Shown here: in pieces, positions 8,691-63,194 of the stretch
Layout: every line of letters begins with the position of its first letter
How positions within the stretch are numbered: position 1 is the stretch's first letter
Source: Pseudalkalibacillus salsuginis
Lineage (GTDB): Bacteria > Bacillota > Bacilli > Bacillales > Fictibacillaceae
Reading direction: 5' to 3'
NCBI RefSeq assembly: GCF_021646685.1
Contig: NZ_JAKJHW010000001.1
Span: 806,001-870,000 of the forward strand
DNA length: 64,000 nucleotides
The notes under the pieces: model-generated
Databases searched by the model: none
Told to the model about the DNA's origin: nothing
Seen by the model: the letters and a program-made list of their open reading frames with translations, nothing else
Position numbers and translations under genes: made by a program

Positions 8691-9094
8691 TATAAGAAAA
8701 GCGCAAACACCCTGATCAACCACGAAGGTCACCGGACGTCCAACGAGGAGTTTCTAAAGATCGGTTTTTCGCGTTGTAAGTGCTTCATAAAGGTCTTATG
8801 AGTACCTTAAGATCCGTTTTTCGCGTTGTAAGTGCTCCATAAAGGTCTTATGAGTACCTTAAGATCCGTTTTTCGCGTTGTAAGTGCTCCATAAAGGTCT
8901 TATGAGTACCTTAAGATCGGTTTTTTGCATTGCAAGTGCTCTATAAAGGTCTTATGAACCAAACAAAGTTCCGGTTCTGCGCGGGTAACACTTCGACCTA
9001 AATCAATGTGTCGACCGCCACAGGAGGACGAAGTGATTCAAGTGGTTGGGTGTTGGAGCTAGACATTCCTTCATCGAAACGAAATTTTCACACT
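8691..9094 (+). repeat. dispersed intergenic repeat, copy A (interrupted)
   Basis: Left part: AAGAAAAGCGCAAACACCCT, then GATCAACCACGAAGGTCACC up to CCAACGAGGAG at about 8750. The right part resumes at ACCAAACAAAGTTCCGGTTC (about 8957) and runs through CAATGTGTCGACCGCCACAG, GGAGCTAGACATTCC and GAAATTTTCACACTT. The two parts match copies C, D and E, in which they are separated by only GCTCGA. Here about 210 bp of tandem repeat replaces those six bases. No coding frame is conserved. Confidence 0.85.
8758..8955 (+). repeat. 52-bp tandem repeat, about 3.8 units
   Basis: Units start at 8758, 8810, 8862 and 8914, each beginning AGATC(C/G)GTTTTTCGCG, continuing TTGTAAGTGCTCCATAAAGG and ending TCTTATGAGTACCTTA; the last is truncated and more diverged. 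Each unit contains a small stem, AAGGT/ACCTT. The array sits inside copy A of the dispersed repeat. The units are contiguous without unique spacers, so this is not a CRISPR array. Confidence 0.9.
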
Positions 9095-9155
9095 TAAAAA
9101 GGATGGCCTTAAAAGTACCATCCTCATGTACAATCGATATTCATAATATGATGAA

Positions 9156-9518
9156 TCAAGTCAAAAGGACAATCCAAAAAACAACGAATCCTAAGTTCAA
9201 TACGAACCATGACCAGTACCATACTCTTGAGTAAGTGTTCCGGTCTTTATTGACATGCAAAAACATACCAGGTATTACCATCCAAATAACAAAAAGAAAA
9301 ATACCTAATAGAAACTGAACAATGGATGTAAAATTGAATTGATCAAAAGCCACAATCAATAAGTATGTTGGGACAAATTGTATGAACGGTACAAAAATGC
9401 TCCAAATCCATGCTCTTACCCGGTACATCTCAAAATACGTCCGATTCTCTTCCAAATATTTCCGTGTGTCACTCTGGATACTACTGAACGGAGCAGGTAT
9501 TTTACTTGATAACTCCAT
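9156..9518 (-). CDS. hypothetical membrane protein, three predicted helices
   Basis: 120 residues, ATG at 9518 behind AGGGGGCGATCCA. After a polar N-terminus of about 36 residues there are three hydrophobic segments (about 37-58, 66-88, 99-119). The last ends at the C-terminus, with aromatic-rich RVWYWSWFVLNLGF. I do not recognise the family. It stands alone between the dispersed repeat and the divergent YdjO-like gene. The good ribosome binding site and protein-like composition support a real gene. Confidence 0.6.
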   Translation of the reverse strand: MELSSKIPAPFSSIQSDTRKYLEENRTYFEMYRVRAWIWSIFVPFIQFVPTYLLIVAFDQFNFTSIVQFLLGIFLFVIWMVIPGMFLHVNKDRNTYSRVWYWSWFVLNLGFVVFWIVLLT

Positions 9519-9658
9519 TGGATCGCCCCCTACACATGATATTTATGTATGGCAAAGACTAACTCATGACCATTTTCACATAATTCCAGAACATAGAAAC
9601 TATATTATTAGGCAAAATTGGGTATAATAGAGATACTAAGATAAAGAGGGTGGAAGCA

Positions 9659-9844
9659 ATGGCATTTTTCTCAAAGAATCAACAAGAACCAATCCCCGAG
9701 GTTGAAACGAAAGTTTGGAGTTGCACGAGCCAGAACTGTTCTGGATGGATGAGAGAAGGGTTGACGTTTGATTCTGAACCAGCTTGTCCACTCTGTAATG
9801 CACCTATGAAACCAGAAGTCCGAGTATTACCGGAGCTATCATAA
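9659..9844 (+). CDS. cold-inducible YdjO-family zinc-ribbon-like small protein
   Basis: 61 residues from ATG 9659, preceded by AAAGAGGGTGG; an in-frame GTG at 9650 overlaps that site and is less likely. The protein has a WSCTSQNCSGWMREGL block and a CPLCNAPM block. That gives four cysteines spaced as a small metal knuckle, matching the Bacillus YdjO family, which is induced by cold; its molecular function is unknown. A TATAAT box lies at 9623-9628. A terminator follows at 9855-9902, so it is a single-gene unit. Confidence 0.7.
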   Translation: MAFFSKNQQEPIPEVETKVWSCTSQNCSGWMREGLTFDSEPACPLCNAPMKPEVRVLPELS

Positions 9845-9854
9845 TATCGTTTAC

Positions 9855-9902
9855 AGGAAGGACGAGATCTCCTAAATGGATCCGCCTTCCTTTATTTTTT
9901 AC
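9855..9902 (+). terminator. terminator of the YdjO-like gene
   Basis: AGGAAGG and CCTTCCT close a stem that continues with inner GATC pairing, then TTTATTTTTT. It lies ten bases after the stop codon. Confidence 0.7.
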
Positions 9903-9935
9903 CTTTAATATACTTCAGGGTTGATGTTGATTCTG

Positions 9936-10115
9936 GAGAAAATGCGACATCGCCCTGATTAACCACGAGGGGCACTGGAAGCCCAACGAGGAGGCTCGAA
10001 CCAAAAAAAGTTCGGTTCTGCGCGGGTAAACCTTTCGATCTAAATCAATGTGTCAGCCGCCGTAGGGGGCTGGTGGTTCGGCGACGGAGCTGGACATCAC
10101 TTCTCTGCATCTCAA
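9936..10115 (+). repeat. dispersed intergenic repeat, copy B
   Basis: Same order of blocks as the other copies: CGCCCTGATTAACCACGAGG, CACTGGAAGCCCAACGAGGA, GGCTCGAACC, GTTCGGTTCTGCGCGGGTAA, AAATCAATGTGTCAGCCGCC, and GGAGCTGGACATCACTTC. It is more diverged in its 3' third than copies C and D. It lies between the YdjO-like gene and hup, both on the + strand. The rest of 9903-10300 holds only A/T-rich promoter-like sequence before hup. Confidence 0.8.
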
Positions 10116-10300
10116 CTCTCGCCAGGCTCGCTTGGACTATTGCCTAAAAAATGGCCAAAGAAAGAACACAGTGTTTAGGAGCCTATTTTTTGAAGCGGCG
10201 ATAAAAAGAATTTTTAAAAAATGGATGTATATATAATTCAAAACCGGTAAGAATGGTAGATACATAAGGTTCCATCGAATAATATCAAGGAGGAATAAAC

Positions 10301-10576
10301 GTGAACAAACGTGATTTAATCCAACAAGTTGCTGAACAAACCGGTTTATCAAAAAAACACTCGACAACAGCTGTCAATGCAGTTATTGATGCAATTACTC
10401 AAAGACTTACGAATGGTGAAAATGTACAATTGATCGGGTTTGGTAGTTTTGAAGTTCGCGAACGCCAAGCAAGAAAAGGACGCAATCCTCAGACTGGTCA
10501 AGTCATTCAAATTCCAGCTACTCGTACACCTGCCTTCAAGCCGGGTAAACAGCTGAAAGAAGCAGTAAGAGCATAG
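10301..10576 (+). CDS. hup: HU family DNA-binding protein
   Basis: 91 residues with GTG start at 10301 behind AAGGAGGA. The sequence is typical HU throughout: [19 protein letters not shown] at the N-terminus, [20 protein letters not shown] before the DNA-binding arm, and the arm tip [22 protein letters not shown] is the main nucleoid protein of Bacillus, bending and compacting DNA non-specifically. It is a monocistronic unit with a terminator at 10596-10630. The length is the family standard (90-92). Confidence 0.95.
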
Positions 10577-10595
10577 TTTAAGTCTATAAGAAACT

Positions 10596-10630
10596 AAAGG
10601 GACTACCAATCCGGCAAGTCCCTTTTCTCT
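10596..10630. terminator. terminator between hup and the convergent SDR gene
   Basis: AAAGGGACT and AGTCCCTTT form a 9-bp stem with a 12-base loop followed by T-rich sequence (TTTTCTCTTTTC). It can serve both convergent transcripts. Confidence 0.75.
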
Positions 10631-10638
10631 TTTCATTA

Positions 10639-11436
10639 TCACATGACGCTTCCGCCAGAAATTTTCACTGACTCCCCAATAATATTTGGCGCAGCATCAG
10701 TGAGCAAGTACGCAATCGTATTAGCCACTTCTTCTGGCTGAGTCAATTTCCCTGAAGGATATTCTTTTTTGATCGCCTTCCATTGTTCTTCGAATGAAAT
10801 CCCGTTTCGTTCTGCCCTTTTTTCTATAGCTTTAATACCCATCGGTGTATTCACATACCCCGGGCAAACCGCATTGACCCTGACTCCATTTTCAATGGCT
10901 TCAAATGCAAAGGAATGGGTAAACCCAATCAGGGCAAACTTAGACCCCGAATATGCTGTATTCCCATATGTTCCTCTCACCCCTGATAATGAGGATACAT
11001 TGACGATGACCCCTCGTTGCTGTTTTTTCATGCATTGATAAACCAGTTTTGTCAACATTACCGCGGAGGTAAAATTCAGATCCATGATGAATTCAAGCTC
11101 TTCTTTTGAGGTATCATCAATGATCCCACCGCCACTGATCCCAGCACAATTCACTAATCCATAAACAGGTCCAAGCTTGTCAATTGCTTTTTTAACTAGG
11201 TTGATTTGTTCTTCCTCAACCGTCAAATCGGCTATATGTACATATACGTTATCGGCAGGGGTAAATTCGGCTATTTCTTGCTTCAGCAAGTTCAATTTTT
11301 TTTCGTCTCTTGCTGTGATTGTCACTTTTCCACCCATTTTGACCACTGCTTTAGCCGTATCACTTCCGATTCCTCCGCTTGCACCAGTTACGATGACATG
11401 CCGGTTTTCAAGTGCATCAAAGGAAAAAACGTTCAT
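10639..11436 (-). CDS. short-chain dehydrogenase/reductase (FabG-like)
   Basis: 265 residues, ATG at 11436 behind AAAGGAGCGG. Classical SDR motifs are all present: TGASGGIGSD for NAD(P) binding (about 18-27), NCAGISG (about 96-102), the catalytic Ser region VNVSSLSGVRG, and the YSGSKFA catalytic Tyr/Lys (about 162-168). The C-terminus ISGGSVM is FabG-like. It reduces or oxidises an alcohol/ketone using a nicotinamide cofactor; the substrate is not readable. Transcription may come from upstream of the MFS gene or from its own promoter; a small RNA-like module lies 280 bp upstream. Confidence 0.88.
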   Translation of the reverse strand: MNVFSFDALENRHVIVTGASGGIGSDTAKAVVKMGGKVTITARDEKKLNLLKQEIAEFTPADNVYVHIADLTVEEEQINLVKKAIDKLGPVYGLVNCAGISGGGIIDDTSKEELEFIMDLNFTSAVMLTKLVYQCMKKQQRGVIVNVSSLSGVRGTYGNTAYSGSKFALIGFTHSFAFEAIENGVRVNAVCPGYVNTPMGIKAIEKRAERNGISFEEQWKAIKKEYPSGKLTQPEEVANTIAYLLTDAAPNIIGESVKISGGSVM

Positions 11437-11714
11437 CGCGGCCGCTCCTTTACCTTTTAAGAACTAAAAAATTATGATTTCTTTATTTTAAAGTAGATGG
11501 ACTCAACTAAAAAAAGACAGACCCCTCGTTTCAAGAAGATTTGAGGTTCATTGCATTGGTTTGACAACGCCGTTATTTATATCAACTTACCCTTAGTTCC
11601 ATTCATGTAAACTAATGTTTATTCCATTTTACCAAAAATGTTCACTTTCCACCGAATATAGTTGACATTTCAATGAGAACATCATACGAATTGAACTCAG
11701 TAGGCTTTTTAAAC

Positions 11715-11788
11715 AAAAAAAGGGTGCAAGCTACTTTAGCTTGCACCAAAAAGGTATGGGCGGTGTCAGAGTTTTAAGGGGATTGTCT
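11715..11788 (-). ncRNA. putative small RNA or leader module, copy 1
   Basis: Read on the - strand, TATACT (11794-11799) is followed about seven bases later by a segment near-identical to the copy at 13347-13421: GTAGACAATCCCCTTAAAAC, then TCTGACACCGCCCATACC. It ends in a perfect terminator, GGTGCAAGCT-loop-AGCTTGCACC (11723-11747), with TTTTTTT. The single-stranded part is C-rich and could pair with AAGGGG-type ribosome binding sites, as trans-acting regulatory RNAs of Firmicutes do. Stem changes relative to copy 2 are compensatory. It lies 280 bp upstream of the SDR gene, so a cis leader is the alternative. Confidence 0.6.
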
Positions 11789-11793
11789 ACTTT

Positions 11794-11832
11794 AGTATAA
11801 CACGGCACTAAAGGGTTTGTTATTGGGAAAAC
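11794..11832 (-). promoter_or_regulatory. promoter of the small RNA module, copy 1
   Basis: TATACT at 11794-11799 (- strand) with an upstream block TTTTCCCAATAAC that is also conserved at copy 2. The bases between the two blocks differ between copies, which is how a promoter spacer behaves. No good TTGACA is present, so an alternative sigma factor is possible; the sigma factor is not determined. Confidence 0.45.
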
Positions 11833-11959
11833 AACCGAAAAACAACCGAAAAAAACGTAGTTGTCAATCAAAGATTTTCCCAACTTTTCCTACCCACATA
11901 AAAACGATGCGACCTTTCTCTTTTATAATCATTTTGTACTACTTACGGACATTTGCATA

Positions 11960-13216
11960 TTAACTTGCCGCCCTCTCTTTATTCTTCTGTCTCAGTTTTT
12001 TAACATCGGCTTGGATAAGGATGGATACGACCAGCGCCACTAAAAAAGCTGCTGCAAAAATATAAAGAGTCAGTGTATAACTTTGGGTAGTCTCACGTAA
12101 CCATGAAACGAGAATCGGTCCTACAAGACCAGCTGCAGCCCAGGCCGTCAAGATATAACCGTGGATAGCCCCAAGTTGTTTCGTGCCAAACAAATCTCCG
12201 ATATAAGCTGGTATGGAAGCGAAACCTCCACCATAACAAGATAAGATAAAAAAAATGGAAACTTGGAATAACAGGGAAGCTGTAGTAATTGGTAACAGGA
12301 TGAACAGTACGATCTGGATAGCAAAAAAAGCAGTATACACATTCGGTCTGCCAATGTAATCTGACAGTGATGCCCAGCCAATACGCCCTAATCCGTTGAA
12401 CAGTCCCATAATTCCGACCATCGTCGCTGCTGCTGCTGCACTTAAACCAGCTATTTCTTGGGCCATAGGGGAAGCGACTGAAATGATGGCGATCCCGCAA
12501 GTGACATTGATGAACAACATCAACCATAGGTACCAGAATCGTCTGGTTTTCGAAGCTTCATTAGCTGTAAGCTGTGAGAGATCCTGCGGTTTATGCTTTC
12601 TTTTTTCCATGCTCTCATCATAACCCTTTGGTTTCCATCCTACAGGTGGTGGTGACAGGTAAGAGGATGAGAGGAGCATAATTGCTAAATATACAATCCC
12701 TAAAATATAGAACGTCCCAGCAATGCCGACCAGATTAATCAGTGAATTGATCACAGGGCTGGCAATTAAAGAGGCGAAACCAAAGCCCATGATCGCAAGG
12801 CCGGTCGCAAGTCCTCTCCGGTCAGGAAACCACTTTACCAATGTAGATACCGGAGCGATATATCCTATTCCTAACCCGATTCCGCCAAACACGCCGTATG
12901 CAACATATAGTAAGGTCAGAGATTCTGCATTGATTGCCAAACCGGAACCTAAAAGACCGACCCCAAAAAATGATGCTGATATGATTCCTGATTTCCTCGG
13001 CCCATGCTTTTCAACAAAATGGCCCATGAAAGCAGCTGCAAGGCCTAAAAAAAGAATGGCGATACTGAATGTCCAAGAGACTCTGCTTAAACTCCAGCCA
13101 TATTCGTTCATCAATGGTTTTGTAAAAACACTCCAAGAGTATACCGAACCAATCGATAAATGAATCCCGACCCCACAAGCGGCAATCAACCAGCGATTTT
13201 TCACCTTATCCGACAC
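11960..13216 (-). CDS. MFS transporter, oxalate/formate antiporter-like
   Basis: 418 residues from the GTG at 13216, preceded by GAGGAGAGATAAT; translating further upstream would run through the small RNA module. About twelve membrane helices are visible. Family features are RWLIAACGVGIHLSIGSVYS in helix 1, FMGHFVEKHGPRKSG in the helix 2-3 loop, and the second-half repeat GLGRIGWASLSDYIGR. This matches the OxlT group of major facilitator proteins, which exchange dicarboxylates or monocarboxylates such as oxalate and formate. The real substrate is unknown. Proximity to fdhD and moaA, needed for molybdenum formate dehydrogenases, makes formate or oxalate attractive, but this is inference. Confidence 0.8.
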   Translation of the reverse strand: MSDKVKNRWLIAACGVGIHLSIGSVYSWSVFTKPLMNEYGWSLSRVSWTFSIAILFLGLAAAFMGHFVEKHGPRKSGIISASFFGVGLLGSGLAINAESLTLLYVAYGVFGGIGLGIGYIAPVSTLVKWFPDRRGLATGLAIMGFGFASLIASPVINSLINLVGIAGTFYILGIVYLAIMLLSSSYLSPPPVGWKPKGYDESMEKRKHKPQDLSQLTANEASKTRRFWYLWLMLFINVTCGIAIISVASPMAQEIAGLSAAAAATMVGIMGLFNGLGRIGWASLSDYIGRPNVYTAFFAIQIVLFILLPITTASLLFQVSIFFILSCYGGGFASIPAYIGDLFGTKQLGAIHGYILTAWAAAGLVGPILVSWLRETTQSYTLTLYIFAAAFLVALVVSILIQADVKKLRQKNKERAAS

Positions 13217-13346
13217 ATTATCTCTCCTCACGTTTATTATTTGAGAAGCTCTTGGTGTCCTTGCTTGTTTCAAAACTAAAGATGATTTTTTGAAATAATA
13301 CCATGAAAGCGCATTCATTAACAAACCATACGATTGATCTATGATA

Positions 13347-13421
13347 AAAAAAAGAGTGCAAGCAACAAGTGCTTGCACTGAAAAAGGTATGGGCGGTGTC
13401 AGAGTATTAAGGGGATTGTCT
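13347..13421 (-). ncRNA. putative small RNA or leader module, copy 2
   Basis: Second copy of the module at 11715-11788. Promoter-like TATACT lies at 13427-13432, then GTAGACAATCCCCTTAATAC and TCTGACACCGCCCATACC. The terminator stem AGTGCAAGCA-loop-TGCTTGCACT (13355-13379) is followed by TTTTTTTT. Compared with copy 1 the linear C-rich part has only one or two changes, whereas the stem differs on both arms in a way that keeps pairing. It lies 130 bp upstream of the MFS start, in the same direction. A trans-acting small RNA or an attenuating leader both fit. Confidence 0.6.
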
Positions 13422-13624
13422 ACTTCAGTATAACATGGGATCCATGTCTTCGTTATTGGGAAAATCAAGCTTTTTATCGTTTAAAATTTGATATGTTGAT
13501 AGAATAATTTTCCCAATATCACCATTCCCTCTACCCTCCACTCTCCTCAAGTACGAACAACATGAAACTTCGAAATAAGATATAATGAGTAAAAGGGAAT
13601 TCGACGTACGGAATGAGGGATACG

Positions 13625-29693: not shown

Positions 29694-29886
29694 TGATAAG
29701 AAAAGCGAAAATGCCCTGATCAGCCACGAAGGTCACTAGAAGTCCGACGAGGAGGCTCGAACCAAACAAAGTTCGGTTCTGCGCGGGTAAACACTTCGAC
29801 CTAAAGCAATGTGTTGCCGCCGCAGTAGGTCTGAAGTGATCCAAGTGGTTGGGCATTGGAGCTAGACATTACTACATCGAATTTAA
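29694..29886 (+). repeat. dispersed intergenic repeat, copy C
   Basis: Begins GATAAGAAAAGCGAAAATGC and CCTGATCAGCCACGAAGGTC, with GTCCGACGAGGAGGCTCGAA in the middle, then CCAAACAAAGTTCGGTTCTG. It continues CAATGTGTTGCCGCCGCAG and ends GGAGCTAGACATTAC. It lies between the amtB promoter and the SSS terminator, both - strand units. This copy and copy D are the best preserved. Internal pairs include GAACC/GGTTC. Confidence 0.88.
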
Positions 29887-34653: not shown

Positions 34654-34737
34654 ACACAAGCAAACTTTTATAGTAAAAAAGATTGGGTTAACCAGTTAAT
34701 TTCATCCTAGAAAATTACGATGTTAGAAATTTTTCAG

Positions 34738-34952
34738 TTATTCTAGGAAAGCGGAATCGCCCTGATCAGCCACGAAGGTCACTGGAAGTCCGATGAGGAG
34801 GCTCGAACCAAACAAAGTTCGGTTCTGCGTGGGTAAACGCTTCTTTTTAAATCAATGTGTCGACCGCCACAGGAGGACTGAAGTGATCCAAGTGGTTGGG
34901 GGTGGAGCTAGACATCACTTCAACAAAACGAAATTTTTATACCTTCTTATCG
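34738..34952 (+). repeat. dispersed intergenic repeat, copy D
   Basis: The most complete copy. It runs from GGAAAGCGGAATCGCCCTGA through TCAGCCACGAAGGTCACTGG, GTCCGATGAGGAGGCTCGAA, CAATGTGTCGACCGCCACAG and GGAGGACTGAAGTGATCC to ACGAAATTTTTATACCTTCT and TATC. GAAGTGATCC and GGAGCTAGACATCACTTC contain complementary GAAGTGAT/ATCACTTC arms. The right end TTCTTATC is the inverse of the left end GATAAGAA seen in copy C. It lies between two - strand operons and abuts a terminator. Confidence 0.88.
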
Positions 34953-34955
34953 CAT

Positions 34956-34996
34956 AAAAAAAAGAGGACCTGAACAGAAGTCAGAAACCTCTTAAA
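34956..34996 (-). terminator. terminator of the FAD oxidase/BASS operon
   Basis: AAGAGG and CCTCTT close a stem with a 20-base loop; on the - strand eight T follow. It lies ten bases after the BASS gene stop. Confidence 0.65.
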
Positions 34997-35005
34997 AACA
35001 AAGGA

Positions 35006-35992
35006 TTATTTGCCTGTATTTTGCACCGGAATGTCCGATGCTACGGTTGCAGTTGAGTCTTTATCTGTGACCGGTTTCTTTGACCAAAAAGTGGCAAGAA
35101 CCGGTCCGGAAATATTGTGCCAGACTGCTGCGATGACATTCGGTAGCGCTGCCAAAGGACCGAAGTGAGCAGTAGCTAAAGCGACACCGAGCCCAGAATT
35201 CTGCATGCCGACCTCAATTGAAATTGCACGCCTCTTACTTTCATCCAGCCTCATTGCCCATGCTGTCATATATCCGAGCGTCAAACCTATCAAATTATGA
35301 AGCATGACCGCAGAGAAGATAACAAGACCAGAAGTTGCTATACTTTCAACATTGGCAGAAACAACCGCAGACACGATGACAATGATCGCTATAACTGAAA
35401 TCAATGGGATAACCGTTGCACTCTTATGGACAGCTGCAGGAAAGACCTTTCGTATAATAAGCCCCAGTGTAACCGGTACAATGATCACTTGAACGATTGA
35501 AATGAACATAGCCACCGGGTCGACCGGCAACCATTGTCCTGCAAGTCCCAGAAGGATGAGCGGCGTCAAAATCGGGGCAAGCATCGTAGACAAGGAGGTC
35601 ATCGCAACAGAAAGGGCGAGATTCCCTTTAGCCAAGTAAACCATCACATTCGATGCTGTACCGCCGGGAACGGAGCCAAGCAATACCAGCCCAGCTGCCA
35701 ATTCTGCAGGAAGATTCATTGCATATGCAAGCGCCAAGGCAATCAACGGCATGATCATGAATTGAGCTGCTACTCCTAGGATGACTGGGAGCGGTTTCTT
35801 AAGCACCAATTTGAAATCGACCGGTTTCAAGGTCAGTCCCATCCCGAACATGACAACGCCTAATAGAATTGTGATATAACTTCCTAACCCTAGAAATGGA
35901 GTTGGAATGAAATATGCAAGTACGGCAATAGCAATTACCCAGACGGCAAAGTATTTTCCTGCTAAACTACTGATCGATTCTAGTAACTTCAT
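35006..35992 (-). CDS. bile acid:sodium symporter family transporter (YocS-like)
   Basis: 328 residues, ATG at 35992 overlapping the stop of the oxidase gene by four bases (ATGA), with AAGGAGGAGAGACCG upstream. About nine to ten membrane helices. BASS signature stretches are GVVMFGMGLTLKPVDFKLVL and LLGSVPGGTASNVMVYLAKG with the crossover motif, and SIEVGMQNSGLGVALATAHF. Bacterial members move organic acids such as pantoate or keto acids with sodium. The coupling with a GlcD-type oxidase suggests a 2-hydroxy or 2-keto acid, which is inference. Confidence 0.85.
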   Translation of the reverse strand: MKLLESISSLAGKYFAVWVIAIAVLAYFIPTPFLGLGSYITILLGVVMFGMGLTLKPVDFKLVLKKPLPVILGVAAQFMIMPLIALALAYAMNLPAELAAGLVLLGSVPGGTASNVMVYLAKGNLALSVAMTSLSTMLAPILTPLILLGLAGQWLPVDPVAMFISIVQVIIVPVTLGLIIRKVFPAAVHKSATVIPLISVIAIIVIVSAVVSANVESIATSGLVIFSAVMLHNLIGLTLGYMTAWAMRLDESKRRAISIEVGMQNSGLGVALATAHFGPLAALPNVIAAVWHNISGPVLATFWSKKPVTDKDSTATVASDIPVQNTGK

Positions 35993-37383
35993 CGGTCTCT
36001 CCTCCTTGTATGCACAAGTTTATTCGGATTCATAAGTTCATGCGGGTCAAGCGCTAATTTGATTTTTTCCATGACATGAAACGCTTTCCCGTGTTCACGC
36101 TGCTGGTATTTCATCTTACCGATCCCGACACCATGCTCCCCTGTACAAGTGCCCCCGCGCTGAAGGGCATATTCTACGATTTCCTCATTGAACTGCTCTG
36201 CCCTTTTCACTTCTTCGGGGTCATCCATGTCTATCATCAATGAAGTATGATAATTCCCATCTCCGACATGGCCAAGAATCCCCCCTTGAAGGCCTAGCTC
36301 TTCAATCCGTTTTCTTGCAAATTTGATTGCACTTGCCAGTTTAGTGATCGGCACACACACATCAGTAACCATATGTTTCTTGCTAGGGTTTAAGTGCATA
36401 TAAGCGTAAGCAAGGTTGTGACGTGCTTCCCACAGTTTATTGCGGGCAGCGTTGTCCTTTTCAAAATGGACCTCCTCACATCCATGGTCATCCACGATTT
36501 CTTTTGTAAATTCAACATCATGATTAAGTCCTGGTTCATTACCGTGAAATTCTAAAAATAAAGTCGGTTTTTCCAAATAATCCGTATCACTGTATCGGTT
36601 GACTTGTCTGACCGAAGGTTCATCAACAAGTTCAACACGCGCGATCGGGATGCCAGCCTGTAGGATCGAAACGACTGCTTCAACCGCATCATCGACCGTT
36701 GGAAATGCAGCCCTTGCAGCCACAATATGTTCTGGAATGCCGTACACCCGGAGCGTCAACTCGGTAATACACCCTAGCGTACCTTCCGAACCGACAAAAA
36801 GGCTGTTCAAGTTATAACCTGACGAGGATTTTTGCGCTAAACTGCCCGTATGAATGATTTCCCCATCAGGAAGGACCACCTCCAAATCACGGACTTGGTC
36901 ACGCATGACCCCATACTTTACCGAAGTCGTACCACTAGCATTAGTTGCTGCCATACCACCGAGGGTTGCATCTGCGCCCGGATCTACTGTAAAGAATAAA
37001 CCGTATTTTTTCAGTTCTCTATTCAATTGATTACGCGTTACACCGGGCTGGACTTTAACGAGAAAGTCCTTCTCCCTCACTTCAAGCACCTTATTCATGA
37101 GGGTGAAATCAATCGTAATCCCTTTGTCATAGGGGATTACATGTCCTTCCAAGCTGGAACCTATCCCGAACGGAACGATGGGTGTCCCATGCTTGTCCGC
37201 CACTTGGATAATCGCACTCACCTGATCGGCTGTTTCAGGGAATACGACGATATCCGGAGAGCTTGGTGTATGGTAGGATTCATCCTTGCTGTGCTGCTCT
37301 AGTATCGTTTCATTCATCGAAACCTGGTGATCACCCAGGAAAACGTTAAGTTCATCATATACTGTATCGATTGTCGTCTTCAT
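35989..37383 (-). CDS. FAD-linked oxidase (GlcD / D-lactate dehydrogenase type)
   Basis: 464 residues from ATG 37383 (GGGGAGAGATACAT upstream; longer readings start in the repeat-rich gap). PCMH-type FAD domain: IVVFPETADQVSAIIQVADK, PIVPFGIGSSLEGHVIPYDK, and LGGMAATNASGTTSVKYGVM. The C-terminal oxidase domain has ILGHVGDGNYHTSLMID (substrate and metal histidines) and CTGEHGVGIGK. It oxidises D-2-hydroxy acids (glycolate, D-lactate or similar) to keto acids. GlcE and GlcF subunits are not present, so it resembles the stand-alone D-lactate dehydrogenase subgroup. First gene of a two-gene operon with the BASS transporter. Confidence 0.88.
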   Translation of the reverse strand: MKTTIDTVYDELNVFLGDHQVSMNETILEQHSKDESYHTPSSPDIVVFPETADQVSAIIQVADKHGTPIVPFGIGSSLEGHVIPYDKGITIDFTLMNKVLEVREKDFLVKVQPGVTRNQLNRELKKYGLFFTVDPGADATLGGMAATNASGTTSVKYGVMRDQVRDLEVVLPDGEIIHTGSLAQKSSSGYNLNSLFVGSEGTLGCITELTLRVYGIPEHIVAARAAFPTVDDAVEAVVSILQAGIPIARVELVDEPSVRQVNRYSDTDYLEKPTLFLEFHGNEPGLNHDVEFTKEIVDDHGCEEVHFEKDNAARNKLWEARHNLAYAYMHLNPSKKHMVTDVCVPITKLASAIKFARKRIEELGLQGGILGHVGDGNYHTSLMIDMDDPEEVKRAEQFNEEIVEYALQRGGTCTGEHGVGIGKMKYQQREHGKAFHVMEKIKLALDPHELMNPNKLVHTRRRDR

Positions 37384-37478
37384 ATGTATCTCTCCCCGTC
37401 CACTTTTGATGATAAGAATAGACTGTTGCATCGAATTATACATAATAATCAAAATTTTTCAACCACAATATTTCCCAT

Positions 37479-37656
37479 TTAGAAAAGCGCAAACGCCTGT
37501 TAAAACACGAAGATTATTGGAAGTACGATTGAGGAGGCTCAAACCAAACAAAGTTCGGTTCTGCGCGGGGTAAACTCTTCGTTAAATCAATGTGTCGCCC
37601 CCGCAGGAGGGCTGAAGTGATCCAAGTGGTTCAGCGATGGACATTCCTTTACTGCA
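37479..37656 (+). repeat. dispersed intergenic repeat, copy E
   Basis: TAGAAAAGCGCAAACGCCTG, CACGAAGATTATTGGAAGTA, GAGGAGGCTCAAACCAAACA, AAGTTCGGTTCTGCGCGGGG, TAAATCAATGTGTCGCCCCC and GGGCTGAAGTGATCCAAGTG follow in the family order, ending GCGATGGACATTCC. Several short deletions are visible. It fills most of the gap between two - strand units (37384-37684). Confidence 0.82.
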
Positions 37657-37684
37657 CCATATAAGAATCACCCCCTTGAACATT

Positions 37685-38743
37685 TCATTCGATTTTCACT
37701 TTGATTTTTTCTATCGCATTATACCCGTATCCTTTCCGGTTCCAAAAAGGAGTGTCCGGCTGAACTCGATTAGTAGAATCGGTTGCTTTCGCTAAGATCG
37801 TATACTCTCCTTTTTTCGCTGCCAGCCATTGATAAACCCATTTGACCCATCCATAGCCGTTTTCAGTATCACTTGAAAATTTCGTTTCAGACCAGTTTTC
37901 TCCATTATTCGTGCTGATTTCTACTTTCGTGATATACCCTCCCCCTGTCCAGGCAATTCCTTCAATCTTATGTTTTCCTGTATCCAGGACGGCCATATCC
38001 AAAGGTTTTTGAATCGTCGAATTCACATTCATGGTCGTAACTGGAAAGGCTCCTTCAGTATTCTCTTTATTTGGATAATAAACATAATCTACGGTCTGGA
38101 ACGGGCCTTCAAAACTGGATTCAATCACCCGGATTTGCCTGATCCATTTTACAGATGCCATTGCATACCATTGCGGAACGATCAACCTTAATGGAAAGCC
38201 GTGTTTAAAAGTGAGCGGCCTACCGTTATATTCATAGGCGACAATTGTATCCTGATGGAGGGCCTTATCTATCGGTATGCTTCTTGTAAAAGAATGAATC
38301 GAATCGGTGTCTGTCCTCTTTCCAAAATCATGACCCTCAACAACCACCTCTTTGGCTCCTTCTCGGATACCTGCCTGTTCTAAAAGTACCCTTAAAGGTA
38401 CACCCTTCCAATAACCCTGGCTGATCGCCCCTTTGCCCCATTGTTCTCCAAATACTTTCGGTTCGAAATATCTGCGTTTGTCTCCTGCACATTCAAGAAC
38501 TGCCTTGACCGTCTTTGACGGCATCTTCATCAAGTCCCGGAGAGAAACCCATTGTGGGGACAAAACGAAGCCTTTTATAGGAAGCCAATAGTTTAAATTA
38601 CTGATTGGAGGGTATGAAAAATGATTTCTTCTAAAAAATAACTGGTCATCCACTGTTCCATTTATAAAATGGATCGGAGTCTCCTGATTTTCAGGTGTCA
38701 AACTAAGCGTCGTCAAATATGGTCTTTTCATCGGAGAGCTCAT
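37685..38743 (-). CDS. sulfite oxidase-family molybdoenzyme (YuiH-like)
   Basis: 352 residues; ATG 38743 preferred over the adjacent ATG 38746 because of spacing to AAAGGAGG. The molybdopterin domain has KAVLECAGDKRRYFEPKV, where the cysteine would bind molybdenum, plus GYWKGVPLRVLLEQAG, VEGHDFGKRTD and LTFKHGFPLRLIVPQWYAMA. The C-terminal dimerisation domain reads GIAWTGGGYITKVEISTNNG. No heme domain and no signal peptide are visible, so it is probably cytoplasmic; its electron acceptor and substrate are unknown. It fits with moaA and fdhD as evidence that this organism uses molybdenum enzymes. Confidence 0.85.
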   Translation of the reverse strand: MSSPMKRPYLTTLSLTPENQETPIHFINGTVDDQLFFRRNHFSYPPISNLNYWLPIKGFVLSPQWVSLRDLMKMPSKTVKAVLECAGDKRRYFEPKVFGEQWGKGAISQGYWKGVPLRVLLEQAGIREGAKEVVVEGHDFGKRTDTDSIHSFTRSIPIDKALHQDTIVAYEYNGRPLTFKHGFPLRLIVPQWYAMASVKWIRQIRVIESSFEGPFQTVDYVYYPNKENTEGAFPVTTMNVNSTIQKPLDMAVLDTGKHKIEGIAWTGGGYITKVEISTNNGENWSETKFSSDTENGYGWVKWVYQWLAAKKGEYTILAKATDSTNRVQPDTPFWNRKGYGYNAIEKIKVKIE

Positions 38744-58460: not shown

Positions 58461-58578
58461 AAAGTAAATGTCCTTTTCATCATAAAGACCATTCTGGTGA
58501 TGAACATCAACACCTTTAGGGTTTTACGGTATTGCGCATAGGGAAATGAACAATATCGCCGAGACGGAGGTTATGGAT

Positions 58579-59430
58579 ATGAAGGGAATAGCAGTAGACA
58601 CCAGCATTCATTGTCATACAGAATACTCTACTCTAAAAAAAGTGCTTACGGTAAAACCGACCTTTATGAAGATTACAGAAACAATCAATGAAACTCAAAA
58701 ACACTATAAAGCATCGAACATCGATACTTCAATTGCTATACAACAACATGATGCGTTTATAAATGTGCTGAATGAACAGAATATTGAAGTCATCGCACTT
58801 CCTGCTAATCCCAAGCTGCATGAACAGGTCTTTACAAGGGACATTGCATTTGCAATTCAAGATCAGCTATTCGTCGGCTCGATGAGTGAACAGGTTCGCA
58901 AGGACGAAACAGCTATTCTTAAAACCTGGTTACAGGAGAACTCATTGACTTATCAAGAAGGACTTCCTAAGTCCATTGAAGGTGGCGATGTCATGATCGA
59001 CGGCTCAACCATCTGGGTTGGAAAGAGTGGGCGAACATCTTATGAATCAATCGAATATCTTCAAAGCCGTCTCCCTTCCTTCAACGTGGAATCCTTGACA
59101 CTACCGAGGGATATCCTCCACCTTGATTGTGTATTCAACATCATCAGTGAACATACCGCACTCCTTTATCCTCCTGCTTTTATACCGGAGGATTTGAAAA
59201 AAATCAAATCCCATTTCGATATCATCCCTGTTACGAAAGAAGAGCAATTTCACATGGGTCCGAACGTTCTTCCCATCGGTAATAGAAAAGTCATCAGCCT
59301 TTCCCAGAATGAAAGGTTGAACAAGATAATGGAATCAAAAGGATATCGAATTCTTCCAGTCGACTTCTCTGAAATCATCAAGTCAGGTGGATCGTTCAGA
59401 TGCTGTACCCTTCCACTAGAAAGAGAATAA
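58579..59430 (+). CDS. DDAH/arginine deiminase-fold amidinohydrolase
   Basis: 283 residues from ATG 58579 (GGAGG eight bases upstream; ATGs at 58546 and 58573 are worse placed). Fold features: CHTEYSTLKKVLTVKP, EQVFTRDIAFAI, SIEGGDVMIDGSTIWVGKSG, LHLDCVFNIISEHTALLYPP with the catalytic histidine, and GGSFRCCTLPL with the nucleophilic cysteine at the C-terminus. Dimethylarginine dimethylaminohydrolase or a related guanidine-modifying enzyme is likely; arginine deiminase proper is longer. No arginine operon surrounds it. Confidence 0.82.
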   Translation: MKGIAVDTSIHCHTEYSTLKKVLTVKPTFMKITETINETQKHYKASNIDTSIAIQQHDAFINVLNEQNIEVIALPANPKLHEQVFTRDIAFAIQDQLFVGSMSEQVRKDETAILKTWLQENSLTYQEGLPKSIEGGDVMIDGSTIWVGKSGRTSYESIEYLQSRLPSFNVESLTLPRDILHLDCVFNIISEHTALLYPPAFIPEDLKKIKSHFDIIPVTKEEQFHMGPNVLPIGNRKVISLSQNERLNKIMESKGYRILPVDFSEIIKSGGSFRCCTLPLERE

Positions 59431-59435
59431 TGAAA

Positions 59436-59475
59436 AAGACTCTCCCAAAAGCCTTACTTAGGAGAGTCTTATTTA
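59436..59475 (+). terminator. terminator of the DDAH-like gene
   Basis: AAGACTCTCC and GGAGAGTCTT form a 10-bp perfect stem, six bases after the stop codon, followed by ATTTATT. Confidence 0.8.
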
Positions 59476-59545
59476 TTGTATTGTGAAAATTGCTATGAAT
59501 GCTTACGGCTTTTCTGATTTTAATGATATGCCCTTAAATGGACTA

Positions 59546-59710
59546 TCAATTCCAAATGTCATCCAATTTATCACTATAGAAATTAATAGCTTTCTTGTAA
59601 TCTAAAATTTCCCTATTTCCAGTAGTTTCTATTAAGGTCTTTAGAAGGATCTCCATAGAACTTTTATGTTCTTTCAAGTTATACAGCCTCATTGAATAGA
59701 ATACTTGCAT
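59546..59710 (-). pseudogene. C-terminal fragment of a TPR-type protein
   Basis: Read from ATG 59710: MQVFYSMRLYNLKEHKSSME, ILLKTLIETTGNREILDYKK, AINFYSDKLDDIWN, then TGA. The helical-hairpin spacing and the FYSDKLDDIW end resemble the last repeats of Rap-like or HTH-TPR regulators. A TAA lies in frame about eight codons upstream of the ATG, and no ribosome binding site is seen, so it is probably a relic of a larger gene. Otherwise 59431-59745 holds only the terminator. Confidence 0.4.
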
Positions 59711-59745
59711 TGCTTTGTTGTTCGTATTTTAGTAGTAGAAGTTAT

Positions 59746-60207
59746 TTAAAGTTTCATTTTCAAACCCTCATGTGTTGCTTTAAAACCCAACCGCTCATAA
59801 AAACGCAAAGCATCTTTACGTTTTTTATCTGTTGTTAGTTGAACCAAGTGGCAACCACGTTCCTTTGCACGATTAATTGCCCATCTTATAAGTTCAGTTC
59901 CTATCCCTCTACCACGTTCAGAAGATGATGTTCTCACCCCTTCAATAGTAGCTCTCCATCCCCCTTGATGTGTTAAATACGGTGTAAATGTAATTTGTTG
60001 GACACCGATAATTTCATTTTCACAACAAGCTACTACCAACTCATTGTTAGGGTCAGATGAAATAGCATGAAACGCTTTTATGTAACAATTTGGAAGAGGT
60101 TGTTCGTAACGCTCCCTTTTACTACCTAAAGCATCATCAGCAAGCATTTCTACAATTCTTTCTAAATCCTGTTCAGTAGCTATTCTAAACTTTATTTCTC
60201 TATCCAA
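59746..60207 (-). CDS. GNAT N-acetyltransferase
   Basis: 153 residues from TTG 60207, with AAAGGGGGG seven bases upstream; no closer ATG fits. Features: FRIATEQDLERIVEMLADDA, NEIIGVQQITFTPYLTHQGG, RTSSSERGRGIGTELIRWAI (acetyl-CoA loop) and CHLVQLTTDKKRKDALRFYE with RLGFKATHEGLKM. Compact single-domain GNAT with unknown substrate. It lies 60 bases after the PPOX gene, with a strong hairpin in the gap, and may share its transcript. Confidence 0.85.
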   Translation of the reverse strand: MDREIKFRIATEQDLERIVEMLADDALGSKRERYEQPLPNCYIKAFHAISSDPNNELVVACCENEIIGVQQITFTPYLTHQGGWRATIEGVRTSSSERGRGIGTELIRWAINRAKERGCHLVQLTTDKKRKDALRFYERLGFKATHEGLKMKL

Positions 60208-60225
60208 TTATTTGCCCCCCTTTTA

Positions 60226-60262
60226 TCGGGGCGTAATTCAGATTATTGAATTACGCTCCGAG
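60226..60262. terminator. hairpin between PPOX and GNAT genes
   Basis: CGGGGCGTAATTCA and TGAATTACGCTCCG pair over 13 of 14 bases around GATTAT. On the - strand no T run follows but ATAAAAGGGGGG, the ribosome binding site of the GNAT gene. It may protect or attenuate the downstream message rather than end it. Confidence 0.6.
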
Positions 60263-60266
60263 TACT

Positions 60267-60710
60267 CTATATACTTGGAACAAAGGATTGATCCCGAACG
60301 ACTACAGTTTCTGGGGCAAATCTTATTAAAATATTACTGTTTCCTAAACCTTGAAACCTAGAGTCCCAGTTTTTTTCATCTGACCCTAGATAACGCTTCA
60401 GTAAGCGTGTTGCAATTCCTTTATCAAAAGCCTCTACTGTAGCCCGGCCTCTAAACCCTGCATGTAATACTTTTCCTGTTGCAGGGTCAAAATCCACTAC
60501 CCCAATTGCACATTCAGGGTTTTCTTCTATTCGACTTGGAAAGCTGTCTGAGGATGGGGTTCCTATAATATAAATACATTCATCCTCCCAATAGAACCAT
60601 ACAGGGGATTCCCTTGGCCCTTCCTTTGATAAAGTAGATAGGTGTGCAAACAAGGGTTTCTTAAGAAATTCATCTAAGTTAAAACTTCTAGTTCCTTCTA
60701 TAACCTTCAT
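60267..60710 (-). CDS. pyridoxamine 5'-phosphate oxidase-family protein
   Basis: 147 residues from ATG 60710 (AAAGGAAG upstream). PPOX/split-barrel flavin fold: FLKKPLFAHLSTLSKEGPRE, SPVWFYWEDECIYIIGTPSS, CAIGVVDFDPATG, RATVEAFDKGIATRLLKRYL and LIRFAPETVVVRDQS. These proteins bind FMN or F420 and reduce small substrates, often unknown. The gap of about 240 bases upstream (60729-60965) shows nothing I can identify. Confidence 0.8.
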   Translation of the reverse strand: MKVIEGTRSFNLDEFLKKPLFAHLSTLSKEGPRESPVWFYWEDECIYIIGTPSSDSFPSRIEENPECAIGVVDFDPATGKVLHAGFRGRATVEAFDKGIATRLLKRYLGSDEKNWDSRFQGLGNSNILIRFAPETVVVRDQSFVPSI

Positions 60711-60965
60711 TCCAGTACTTCCTTTCAAAATCTTAATAATACTCTTCTTATCATTAGGAAATATCGTCCACCTAATTTAATACCAATTATTTCAAATGTT
60801 CATGAATAGCTCAACTGTTTTTTTAAAACTAAAGATTCCATTAAAAGTTGTGGACAGCAGAAACCCTCTTCTACAGAGTTACTGGTGCAATTTAAAACGA
60901 TTAAATTAATATAATTATCAGGTTGATTTTATAGAGAATCAAAATATATTAATATTTATGATATA

Positions 60966-61859
60966 TCAACCAAATTTCTTTAGTAGTGGATTACTTTTAA
61001 AATTGTACGTATTCATAAAGATCCCTGCACAAATAAATAACGATCCGATAATAATACTAATTGTTATCTTCTCCCCAAGTTGCAACCATCCAAAAATAAT
61101 AGCCAATATAGGGACAAACATTAATGCCATAGATGCTTTTGATGCATCAATTTTAGTTAATATCCAAAACCAAACTACAAATGTAAAGGCAGTAGAAAAT
61201 AAACCATTAAAAACTACTGATAAGATTGCTTTATTAGACCATTCGATTGTATGGTTTGGTTCTAATATGATAGAGAAAATGAATAAAAATAGTGTTCCTA
61301 TAATAAGTTGCCAGGCATTCATATGAATAATATCTATATTTTTAAGCTTTAGTTTGCTAAAAACATTTGCTGATCCCCAACTAAGGGCCGAAATCAATAT
61401 TAATAACTCTCCAAATACTACTTTTGTATCAAACTTAATCACTTCTAATCCAATAATAAATAAAAGGCCGATAAGACCAAATATTAGCCCAATCATTTTA
61501 TAAGCATTAATTCTCTCATTCAATTTAAAATGGCTGATAATGGTGACAAAAATAGGCATGGTATATACCAAAACGGAAGTTTTTCCTGAATCTACAAATT
61601 GCATACCATAAGTTAATATCCCCATATAGCCTATAGCCATTAAAAAGCTTATAATCAAATAGTTTTTTAAATTCTCTTTACCTACAAAGAGTCTTTTTCT
61701 TTGTATCATGAGAATGATAAATAAAGGAAGCGCCCCTATTAATAAACGTAAAGATGAAAATAAAAACGGAGGGATGTCACTAATTGCTATTTTCATCGTA
61801 ACCCATGTATATCCCCAAACGAGAGTAACGGAAATGATTCCTAAGAAAACTTTGAACAT
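60966..61859 (-). CDS. EamA/DMT-family transporter
   Basis: 297 residues, ATG at 61859 behind GAAAGGGGATAATTTAT. Ten membrane helices in two repeated EamA halves (about 1-135 and 145-285), with GISVTLVWGYTWVTMKIAIS at the start and SALSWGSANVFSKLKLKNID opening the second half. Family members export amino acids or metabolites. It is divergent from a LysR regulator with a palindrome between them, a common arrangement for substrate-induced export. The region is markedly A/T-rich compared with its neighbours. Confidence 0.88.
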   Translation of the reverse strand: MFKVFLGIISVTLVWGYTWVTMKIAISDIPPFLFSSLRLLIGALPLFIILMIQRKRLFVGKENLKNYLIISFLMAIGYMGILTYGMQFVDSGKTSVLVYTMPIFVTIISHFKLNERINAYKMIGLIFGLIGLLFIIGLEVIKFDTKVVFGELLILISALSWGSANVFSKLKLKNIDIIHMNAWQLIIGTLFLFIFSIILEPNHTIEWSNKAILSVVFNGLFSTAFTFVVWFWILTKIDASKASMALMFVPILAIIFGWLQLGEKITISIIIGSLFICAGIFMNTYNFKSNPLLKKFG

Positions 61860-61898
61860 ATAAATTATCCCCTTTCACTTTATATAGGTTAACAATAT

Positions 61899-61916
61899 GT
61901 TATATTTATATATAAC
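61899..61916. promoter_or_regulatory. candidate LysR operator
   Basis: GTTATATTTATATATAAC is a near-perfect inverted repeat in the 90-bp gap between the divergent transporter and LysR genes. It contains T-N11-A spacing typical of LysR binding sites. Confidence 0.5.
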
Positions 61917-61950
61917 TGAAATACATTTTTTTCATAAAGGGGATAACCAA

Positions 61951-62838
61951 TTGGTTATGAATATGAACAACCTAAGGATATTTATGAAGGTCGCAGAAAA
62001 AATGAATATTACAGAAGCTTCTAAAGAGTTATTTATCTCACAACCAGCAGTAAGTAAGGCGATTAAAAATCTAGAAAAGTCCCTAAATATTAAATTGTTC
62101 ATCAGGGATAAACAAAATGGCTTAATACTTACTGAAGCGGGGAAAGAAGTTTTAATTTTGGCGAGGCAAATGGAGGTTATTGAGAACAAAATATATCAAG
62201 TTGCTGATCAAGAAAATAAACTTCTAAGGGGAAAGATCAAAGTAGGCTCTTTTCCTGCTGTATCAACCATTATTTTGCCCAAGACCATCTCATTATTCAG
62301 GTCAAAATATCCATTAATTAATATAGAATTAGTAGAAGGGACTTCTAACCAAATTAAAGAATGGGTCGAGGACCGAACTGTTGATATGGGTATCGTTGCA
62401 TCTCCCTTTGAACCGTATGAATTTGAAATATTGAACACTGATTATATGGTCGCAATTATTCCTGAAAATCATAGATTAAATCAAGAAAAAAAGATTGAAT
62501 TAGAAAAATATCAGAATGAAATTATTTTTTGTAAAGGTGGACACGAAATCGCGATATCAAAAACATTTCAAAAGAATAATATTGAGTTAAAAGAGAATCT
62601 GACAGTCCAAAATGCTGAAACTTTAATTAATATGGTCAAAAATAACCTAGGTATAGGTATTATTTCAAGTTTCACTCTGTCTTCAGTTACTCATAACCTA
62701 ATCATAAAAGATATCAATCCAAGAATAACTCGTGATATCGGTATAATCGCACATTCATTTGATGAAGTAACACCCGCAACAAAAGAATTCATTAACATCC
62801 TAAATCAAGTTCATAAATCTGAGCTTTTTCGGCCCTAG
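61951..62838 (+). CDS. LysR-family transcriptional regulator
   Basis: 295 residues from TTG 61951 (AAAGGGG eight bases upstream; ATG 61957 is two codons later). The helix-turn-helix reads NLRIFMKVAEKMNITEASKE and LFISQPAVSKAIKNLEKSL, then LLRGKIKVGSFPAVSTIILP opens the periplasmic-binding-protein-like effector domain with TVDMGIVASPF in its middle. It is divergent from the EamA transporter, which it probably controls in response to the exported compound. Length and order are standard. Confidence 0.9.
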   Translation: MVMNMNNLRIFMKVAEKMNITEASKELFISQPAVSKAIKNLEKSLNIKLFIRDKQNGLILTEAGKEVLILARQMEVIENKIYQVADQENKLLRGKIKVGSFPAVSTIILPKTISLFRSKYPLINIELVEGTSNQIKEWVEDRTVDMGIVASPFEPYEFEILNTDYMVAIIPENHRLNQEKKIELEKYQNEIIFCKGGHEIAISKTFQKNNIELKENLTVQNAETLINMVKNNLGIGIISSFTLSSVTHNLIIKDINPRITRDIGIIAHSFDEVTPATKEFINILNQVHKSELFRP

Positions 62839-62865
62839 AGATTTTAGAATCAACCAATGAAAAAG

Positions 62866-62910
62866 ACCAACCAGAATTAGATTTCTGATTGACCTTATAA
62901 TACGATGTCT
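62866..62910. repeat. second copy of the 2246-2283 element
   Basis: TTTCTGATTGACCTTATAAT followed by ACGA at 62882-62905 repeats 21 bases found at 2264-2284. The left arm has decayed to GACCAACCAGAA, so the stem is imperfect. It lies 30 bases after the LysR stop and may be its terminator. Confidence 0.55.
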
Positions 62911-63071
62911 TTATTAAATAGTACATTCGAATTCCAAAAGTTATCCAAGCCAACCAAGCTATTAAATCAAAAAAAAATGAAGTTCAGTCAGCTGTCTGAG
63001 CATATAAAAAATGAAATAGATGTATAATTGCCGAAATATCCTCCTCTCACTTTTAGCTCCTTTAGTACCTA

Positions 63072-63194
63072 CAGGACATCACTTCGAACTAAATCAATGT
63101 GTTGCCGCCACAGGAGGACTGAAGTGATCCAAGTGGTTGGGCGTTGGAGCTGGACATCACATCACCGCAACCAAAATTTTTATACTTTCTTATC
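63072..63194 (+). repeat. dispersed intergenic repeat, copy F (3' part only)
   Basis: Only the right half is present: CACTTCGAACTAAATCAATG, TGTTGCCGCCACAGGAGGAC, TGAAGTGATCCAAGTGGTTG and GGCGTTGGAGCTGGACATCA, ending TTTTTATACTTTCTTATC. It starts abruptly at a GGACATCACTTC block, so the left half is lost or was rearranged. It lies between the LysR gene and the convergent SRPBCC gene; the remainder of 62839-63310 shows nothing else. Confidence 0.85.

Follow-up and report, generated by a model that had tools for sequence, protein, structure and literature searches.

Intergenic hairpin repeats with replichore polarity beside gene ends in Pseudalkalibacillus salsuginis

Several families of small structured repeats have been described against which the present one can be set. 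BOX elements of Streptococcus pneumoniae combine outer boxA and boxC modules with a dispensable, variable inner boxB; in the passages cited here, boxB contributes little to how the remainder folds, and the length of the element differs among strains (PMC3049150). REP sequences and REPINs, associated with RAYT (TnpA-REP) enzymes, are high-copy intergenic imperfect palindromes that occur in clusters, and the relevant passages describe RAYT enzymes as acting on single-stranded DNA, with the lagging strand as an important supplier (PMC3733652, PMC6006769). A GTAG or CGTC tag at one end, named in the title of PMC3733652, is a further mark of these sequences. The Bacillus genomes contain the small stem-loop repeats bcr1 and Bhal-1, the latter listed at 74 bp and 36 copies and Bcr1 at 167 bp in the part of PMC2267715 drawn on here. 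Finally, the Bacillaceae-1 RNA carries the accession RF01690 (PMC2864571, PMC4333381, both cited from excerpts).

The window analysed here is a 64,000-nt stretch of P. salsuginis (GCF_021646685.1, NZ_JAKJHW010000001.1, positions 806,001–870,000 of the forward strand; the genome is G000 below). A preliminary description had reported six repeat copies in it, all on the plus strand and built from the same blocks. A block check and an alignment bear this out, and a profile built from 33 copies, used for both the window and the genome, recovers all six. Our main reading, to which we give a probability of about 0.55, is that the family is a non-autonomous hairpin repeat inserting at replication forks beside gene ends.

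Architecture and fold of the repeat unit

One conserved 23-base module (≤3 mismatches) has 188 matches genome-wide against 0 for the reversed pattern, which excludes chance as the origin of the family. Units consist of modules H (60 nt), an optional apical A (54 nt) and T (60 nt). Some arrays have in addition a tail, X, as their 3′ end. Elsewhere in the genome the units come in two lengths, ~118 and ~174, and in head-to-tail arrays, neither of which is visible from the window. The window contains the following features:

8695..9094, plus strand: copy 1; H, followed by roughly four tandem 52-bp units inserted at the apex, and then by A, T and a partial X; the profile matches in two pieces
9939..10119, plus strand: copy 2; H-A-T whose T has a small deletion and whose tail is degenerate; the site is occupied in the relative G005 too
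29699..29886, plus strand: copy 3; full H-A-T; the G005 site holds a short unit and a partial unit
34745..34951, plus strand: copy 4; full H-A-T-X; the G005 site holds a short H-T-X form
34952..35000, no strand assigned: A-tract and flank behind copy 4, a T-tract on the minus strand, adjoining the 3′ end of a minus-strand ORF (35006–35992)
37481..37664, plus strand: copy 5; full but diverged H-A-T; A is present in G005 as well
63074..63195, plus strand: copy 6; 5′-truncated, covering model positions 89–211; T and X are present

The tandem 52-bp repeat that interrupts copy 1 at its apex also splits copies at C18:~35 kb and C19:~124.6 kb. Tail X adjoins an A-tract in G145 and G134 as well (2 of 16 sites displayed). 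The end inverted repeat first proposed, GATAAGAAA/TTTCTTATC, is not general: conservation begins sharply at AAGAAAAGCG, and 29 of the 96 solo copies have a T ahead of it. Conservation is also good at the 3′ tail, ACTTTCTTATC (68 copies). The candidate terminal inverted repeats amount to only ~7–8 nt, (T)AAGAAA / TTTCTTA, the bracketed T being the one present in those 29 copies. Short-form units happen to contain an open frame on the opposite strand.

That the element folds, as the preliminary description had proposed, is supported by compensatory base changes in the genus alignment and among distant units. In an alignment of 30 copies, most of them from the genus, 15 of 54 pairs are doubly changed. 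For the 31 distant short units, the share of paired cells is 97.9%, against 26–44% for slid controls, and because 20 of the 25 stem pairs there show compensatory changes, the fold is, judged from the aligned sequences, under selection. The structures were scored on the same alignments from which they were derived, and in neither alignment did any of 500 shuffles reach the observed compensatory-change values. The distant-unit alignment (A4) is one of short units, with L312 dropped and longer units (for example L290, L293, L313, L315 and L317) left out. Folded as RNA, the consensus hairpin reaches ~−68 kcal/mol. Wobble pairs in the distant units (21 G-U versus 4 A-C, a weak count from related rows) favour folding of the sense strand; the genus alignment has 92 G-U and 55 A-C cells, or 50 and 55 once two pairs that are usually G-U are excluded.

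Orientation, gene ends and replication

In G000 the sense strand points toward oriC at 102 of the 107 sites examined, a strand polarity of 95%. The sign flips at oriC on contig C17, between elements at 9.9 and 14.6 kb, in a region marked by dnaA, yidC, mnmE, mnmG, a DnaA-box cluster and the change in GC skew. The replication-linked orientation suggested by the six copies thus holds across this genome. Polarity is weaker in P. decolorationis (G002), where 14 of 73 listed matches are on the strand that is in the minority on their contig, is reversed at all 5 sites examined in the distant genome G415, and is mixed in other genomes. With polarity differing by species in this way, the universal replication or nucleoid signal that had also been entertained is unlikely.

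Elements in G000 are located just behind gene ends, and many adjoin an intrinsic terminator. The 3′-side gene is directed toward the element in 88 of 105 sites (a first count with a simpler gene caller, 81 of 93, is superseded), and 54 of those 88 genes end 18–76 nt from it. Of 105 cases, 52 have a terminator-like hairpin with a T-run that reads into the 3′ side; for the 5′ side the count is 9 or 5 of 105, depending on the reading, all counted at element-bearing sites only. Three of the five polarity exceptions in G000 lie behind a lagging-strand gene, the other two fitting neither a gene nor a replication rule, and 8 of 11 exceptions in G002 follow the adjacent gene, in stretches chosen to include minority-strand copies. 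The independence from transcription suggested at the outset finds, in the form given, no support in these observations. Its premise, flanking genes running in both directions, stands for copies 2 and 6; copies 1, 3, 4 and 5 have minus-strand ORFs on either side in the ORF list.

The 3′-side genes and most of the exceptions in G000 and G002 are what would be expected if orientation were set by the adjacent gene's terminator alone, replichore polarity being a by-product of the co-orientation of genes with replication. Convergent gene pairs argue otherwise. Because both neighbours converge on the element, gene direction cannot decide orientation there, yet with both ends available 25 elements follow replication and 3 do not (28 pairs in G000, p = 2.7e-5). 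Among sites whose two called neighbours are both lagging, 6 agree with replication and none with the genes, on crude gene calls, and the two unruly exceptions suit this explanation no better. We consider it unlikely. In the same convergent pairs the element is closer to the 3′-side gene in only 11 of 28, a count that speaks against our main reading.

Alternatively, elements may insert in both orientations and selection may purge the wrong one, for instance if a folded sense strand harmed fork progress or gene ends. The stability of the hairpin and the strict polarity of G000, with its few exceptions, would suit such a purge, but the many exceptions tolerated in G002 and the reversal in G415 fit poorly with a fixed physical penalty, and we think this account rather doubtful. 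A chromosomal polarity or nucleoid signal, or a 3′-end RNA stabiliser, selected at each site would agree with the strong structural conservation, the wobble asymmetry toward the sense strand in distant units, the location behind gene ends and the polarity toward oriC, but is improbable given the patchy copy number in the genus (3 to 174 pattern matches in seven congeners, diverged copies being undercounted), the rapid change in unit content, the reversed polarity of G415, and 77 of 199 genomes of the order in which the covariance model, under strict filters, detects no member.

Mobility and distribution

The family behaves like a mobile element. The MITE-like mobility first proposed is supported by site occupancy: of 18 comparable sites, the close relative G005 lacks the element at 4, which may be pre-insertion states or precise losses. 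No target duplication is visible at four filled/empty pairs compared by eye between G000 and G005 (0–1 nt, with a TA duplication possible at L031). Units differ at 9 of the 14 sites shared with G005, and the unit number and A content of head-to-tail arrays vary between close strains.

A transposase search of the genome with Y1_Tnp yielded no mobilising enzyme for the element. Its single match in G000 has in its neighbourhood a different repeat, GGTGCCAGGCAC, which may be that enzyme's own REP. The element copy near this gene is absent at the G005 ortholog, and by the genus profile just 1 of 12 Y1 loci from 11 other genomes (seven congeners) has the element, the 12 being a subset of the Y1 matches listed in other genomes. 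These observations speak against a RAYT as the mobiliser, short of absolute exclusion. The sense strand, the one whose folding the wobble count among distant units favours, is in conforming copies the leading-strand template, and an IS608-like mechanism expects the lagging one, which counts against that route. Spread by plasmids or phages was likewise set aside: blastn of copy 3 found no match in 72,556 plasmid and 50,697 phage records, a search that diverged relatives would escape.

If the family inserts at replication forks, copies would be moved in trans by an enzyme that recognises the hairpin and either acts on single strands (HUH-type) or depends on RNA. Such an enzyme would insert them at passing forks, with a preference for DNA next to terminator hairpins and T-tracts, and the replichore polarity of insertions would follow from exposure of the target strand chiefly to one side of the fork. 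Arrays may lengthen and shorten through recombination or through repeated insertions where T meets H. The hairpin apex may tolerate or attract inserts, namely the A module, the tandem repeat of 52 bp and, in other genera, the Bacillaceae-1 motif. Possible parallels in tandem hairpins and in insertion behind terminators were considered with integron attC sites and group II introns.

Distantly similar repeats had been suggested in other Bacillaceae, and a covariance model now places relatives in 122 of the 199 genomes from the order, in 63 of 97 genera. Rfam gave no match in the window at the gathering score, and down to E 10 the interval 34700–37700 gave three matches far below the cut-offs; a Drosophila rox1 match (E 0.29, 22 of 58 bits) overlaps the start of copy 5 and is taken as chance. 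In the open-access literature we met no description of this hairpin-repeat family. The element is a common source of intergenic structure in the order, unnamed by the Rfam searches run. More tentatively, and with the odds against it, we suggest a class of non-autonomous hairpin elements, spanning the order, whose members integrate next to gene ends by a fork-coupled single-strand or RNA-dependent route, with near-complete replichore polarity whose sign can switch between lineages and an apex that docks other small structured modules, the enzyme being of a new type or having an unrecognised activity.

A repeat of ~190 bp with 95% strand polarity could serve as a record of DNA exposure at replication forks. 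Its presence in dozens of genera makes the causes of polarity testable by comparison, with G000 strict, G002 loose and G415, at few sites, reversed.

Comparison with described systems

The likeness to BOX is one of architecture, the only aspect compared: both are small modular repeats with outer modules and an optional inner one. The element differs in its tandem whole units, its tail beside terminators and its replichore orientation, features unreported in the BOX passages of PMC3049150. With REP and REPINs, as the cited passages portray them, it shares high copy number, intergenic location, imperfect palindromes and clustering. Those repeats measure 20–40 bp and are often inverted pairs, whereas the element forms units of 118–174 nt in direct tandem; a REPtron, in which copies flank a Y1 transposase gene, was not seen for it, the G000 Y1 gene lying beside the other repeat. 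Likeness to bcr1 and Bhal-1, as small stem-loop repeats, was judged by their partial published descriptions and not by sequence.

Bacillaceae-1, which is frequent in the same order of bacteria, was rejected as the element itself, having no match in the window and lying mostly outside the element. Two distant units (L317 and L313) carry it near their middle, and a third first-found match is located 95 nt away from a called unit. The motif has the look of a passenger module, and larger repeats that carry it offer this orphan a possible context.

Anatomy, fold and distribution of the element

The preliminary description reported six structured repeat copies in a single orientation, at about 8691-9094, 9936-10115, 29694-29886, 34738-34952, 37479-37656 and 63072-63194. 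All six are present at these places, on the + strand. The host genome, G000, is a draft assembly of 4.29 Mb in 19 contigs. A profile of 213 positions, made from 33 aligned copies, comprises four modules.

Modules and internal features of the element
Module H: profile 1-60
Module A, the optional apex: profile 61-114
Module T: profile 115-175
Module X, the tail: profile 176-212
Apical 52-bp tandem repeat: window copy 1, 8748-8955; contig C18, ~35 kb; contig C19, ~124.6 kb (loci L092; L096)
Short-form units with an open frame on the opposite strand: L058:3913-4272; L058:1982-2209; L073:1982-2194

Where A is missing (the short form), the junction of H and T falls near 60|115. Units are arrayed head to tail with a period of about 118 or 174, and X, where present, lies at the array's 3′ end. 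Among 96 solo copies, the element has a sharp 5′ edge at AAGAAAAGCG. At its 3′ end, the tail AATTTTTATACTTTCTTATC precedes a T-rich spot and an A-tract in which A makes up 69-82% of six successive columns (68 copies). The 52-bp tandem repeat occupies the apex of three separate copies, with three to four recognisable units in each. In some short-form units the antisense strand carries an open frame, with similar translations in several arrays; this frame is probably a by-product.

A 54-pair structure derived from the consensus has 91.1% of cells paired among 30 copies of several species, and both partners have changed in 15 of its pairs (shuffle mean 6.4). A distant set of 31 short units was aligned without reference to structure and then folded by RNAalifold on the same alignment. 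Here, 97.9% of cells were paired versus 26-44% in slid controls, and 20 of 25 pairs were doubly changed (shuffle mean 11.7). G-U outnumbers A-C by 21 to 4 in these distant units, a hint that folding occurs on the sense strand. The genus alignment has 92 G-U versus 55 A-C cells; at its usually Watson-Crick pairs, the figures are 29 versus 28 types and 50 versus 55 cells.

Relatives at the blastn level were found in 8 of 40 genomes, namely G000 and all seven congeners. A covariance model of the element (R1) matched 33 of 34 genomes of the family (E<=0.01), 122 of 199 genomes and 63 of 97 genera of the order, which we take to be Bacillales (E<=0.001), and 26 of 250 genomes of the class (E<=1e-5). 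Of the class-level matches, 14 belong to the same order (G000 is one of them) and the other 12 to a single further family, f49. Tail X with its neighbouring A-tract also occurs in G145 and G134 (2 of 16 sites displayed).

Polarity toward the origin and position at gene ends

A 23-base module pattern matches G000 188 times (102 forward, 86 reverse). Orientation was scored in stretches around sites among 100 listed matches of the 188, plus some further stretches; contigs C6 and C14 were added since they looked exceptional. Replichores were assigned contig by contig from GC skew and oriC position. At 102 of the 107 sites with enough flank, the sense strand is opposite to the G-rich, leading strand. 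The origin lies on C17, marked by dnaA, yidC, mnmE, mnmG and a GC-skew change; of eight exact DnaA boxes, four fall within C17:11.8-12.0 kb. On this contig the element is on the + strand at positions 522, 8313 and 9742, and on the - strand at every later site seen, beginning with 14649. The strand flips across oriC, and the sense strand therefore points to the origin. The proposed replication-linked orientation is upheld in G000, where gene ends act as a second factor. A parS-like site (TGTTTCACGTGGAACA) adjoins an element copy near oriC (L007, about C17:25500).

For contigs bearing three or more listed matches, those on the minority strand make up 2 of 92 in G000, 1 of 19 in its congener G005 (Alkalihalobacillus sp. 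YIM B00296) and 14 of 73 in another congener, G002 (Pseudalkalibacillus decolorationis DSM 14890). For G002, 20 stretches were picked to include minority strands and judged by each stretch's own, at times weak, skew; 20 of their 31 sites conform and 11 do not. Eight of these 11 lie behind a lagging gene, and three of the five G000 exceptions lie directly behind a lagging-strand gene.

Polarity in other genomes, conforming/not, judged by local skew in stretches around listed copies
G349: 6/2
G219: 13/2
G145: 8/3
G134: 4/2
G388: 2/1
G001 (congener): 4/3
G415: 0/5

In G415 (L390-L393), all five sites seen have the reverse of the orientation that prevails in most other genomes, and at two the unit begins <=4 nt from the end of a same-direction ORF.

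Gene direction was assessed at 105 sites flanked on both sides by called genes; calls came from a simple codon-score script that misses small genes, such as 9156-9518 next to copy 1. The 3′-side gene is directed toward the element at 88 of the 105.

Direction of flanking genes relative to the element (5′ side/3′ side)
Opposite/opposite: 60
Same/opposite (convergent): 28
Opposite/same: 9
Same/same: 8

Gene direction carries no information on orientation in the 28 convergent pairs, of which 25 conform to replication (p=2.7e-5). Six of the eight same/same sites also conform; the remaining two obey neither rule.

At 52 of 105 sites, a terminator-like hairpin with a T-run reads into the 3′ side of the element, versus 9 and 5 for the two readings on the 5′ side and 21 for the other 3′ reading, a comparison among sides and readings of element sites rather than with element-free gene ends. 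The 3′-side genes directed toward the element end 18-76 nt off in 54 of 88 cases. Co-directional 5′-side genes end -1 to 15 nt from it in 18 of 36, a share possibly overestimated, since the element is able to provide the stop codon; for 5′-side genes of opposite direction the count is 0 of 69. The nearer gene is the 3′-side one at 44 of 60 opposite/opposite and 11 of 28 convergent sites. In loci L374, L397 and L401 from other genomes, units begin <=3 nt from an ORF end; stop codon and unit start apparently overlap in L397.

Turnover between related genomes

G000 and G005 could be compared at 18 distinct sites with matching flanks, 91-98% identical. Fourteen are occupied in both genomes and four are empty in G005. 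The empty-site junctions show, by eye, a repeat of <=1 nt, and all four adjoin a terminator-like hairpin; L054 has an additional flank difference of 12-13 nt, and L031 one of a few bases. At nine of the 14 sites occupied in both, among them window copies 1, 3 and 4, the two genomes differ in unit number, presence of A, or the 52-bp insert. Beyond the observed structure, turnover, position and polarity, we infer that the element is mobile: insertion coupled to the replication fork, carried out by some enzyme, would spread it.

Relation to known repeat families

An Rfam search of the whole window at the gathering score returned zero matches, and a recheck of 3 kb of it yielded hits below threshold alone. 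Bacillaceae-1 RNA (RF01690; PMC2864571, PMC4333381), an orphan Rfam motif, is present in 3 of 20 distant loci, within the element unit in two (L317:1599-1665, L313:1853-1918). Across the order, 102 of 199 genomes have it. Among 26 of its loci examined there, the element's 5′ motif lies <=110 nt away in four and both ends in one, versus a shuffle rate of about 1%. Within G000, none of 26 Bacillaceae-1 matches (C16:126074-126141, for example) is inside a called element unit, and a unit lies 1-33 nt from five. By eye, a different palindromic repeat encloses many of the G000 matches between its arms. Separately, copies of a GGTGCCAGGCAC palindrome (L031:1120-1285) adjoin the sole Y1 transposase match of G000; this palindrome may be the enzyme's cognate repeat.

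Small Bacillus repeats already described include bcr1 and Bhal-1 (excerpts of PMC2267715). We file the element with the small palindromic mobile repeats, as a distinct variant. Its architecture is like that of BOX (PMC3049150) and its habitat like that of REP (PMC3733652, PMC6006769), with no defining link to either.
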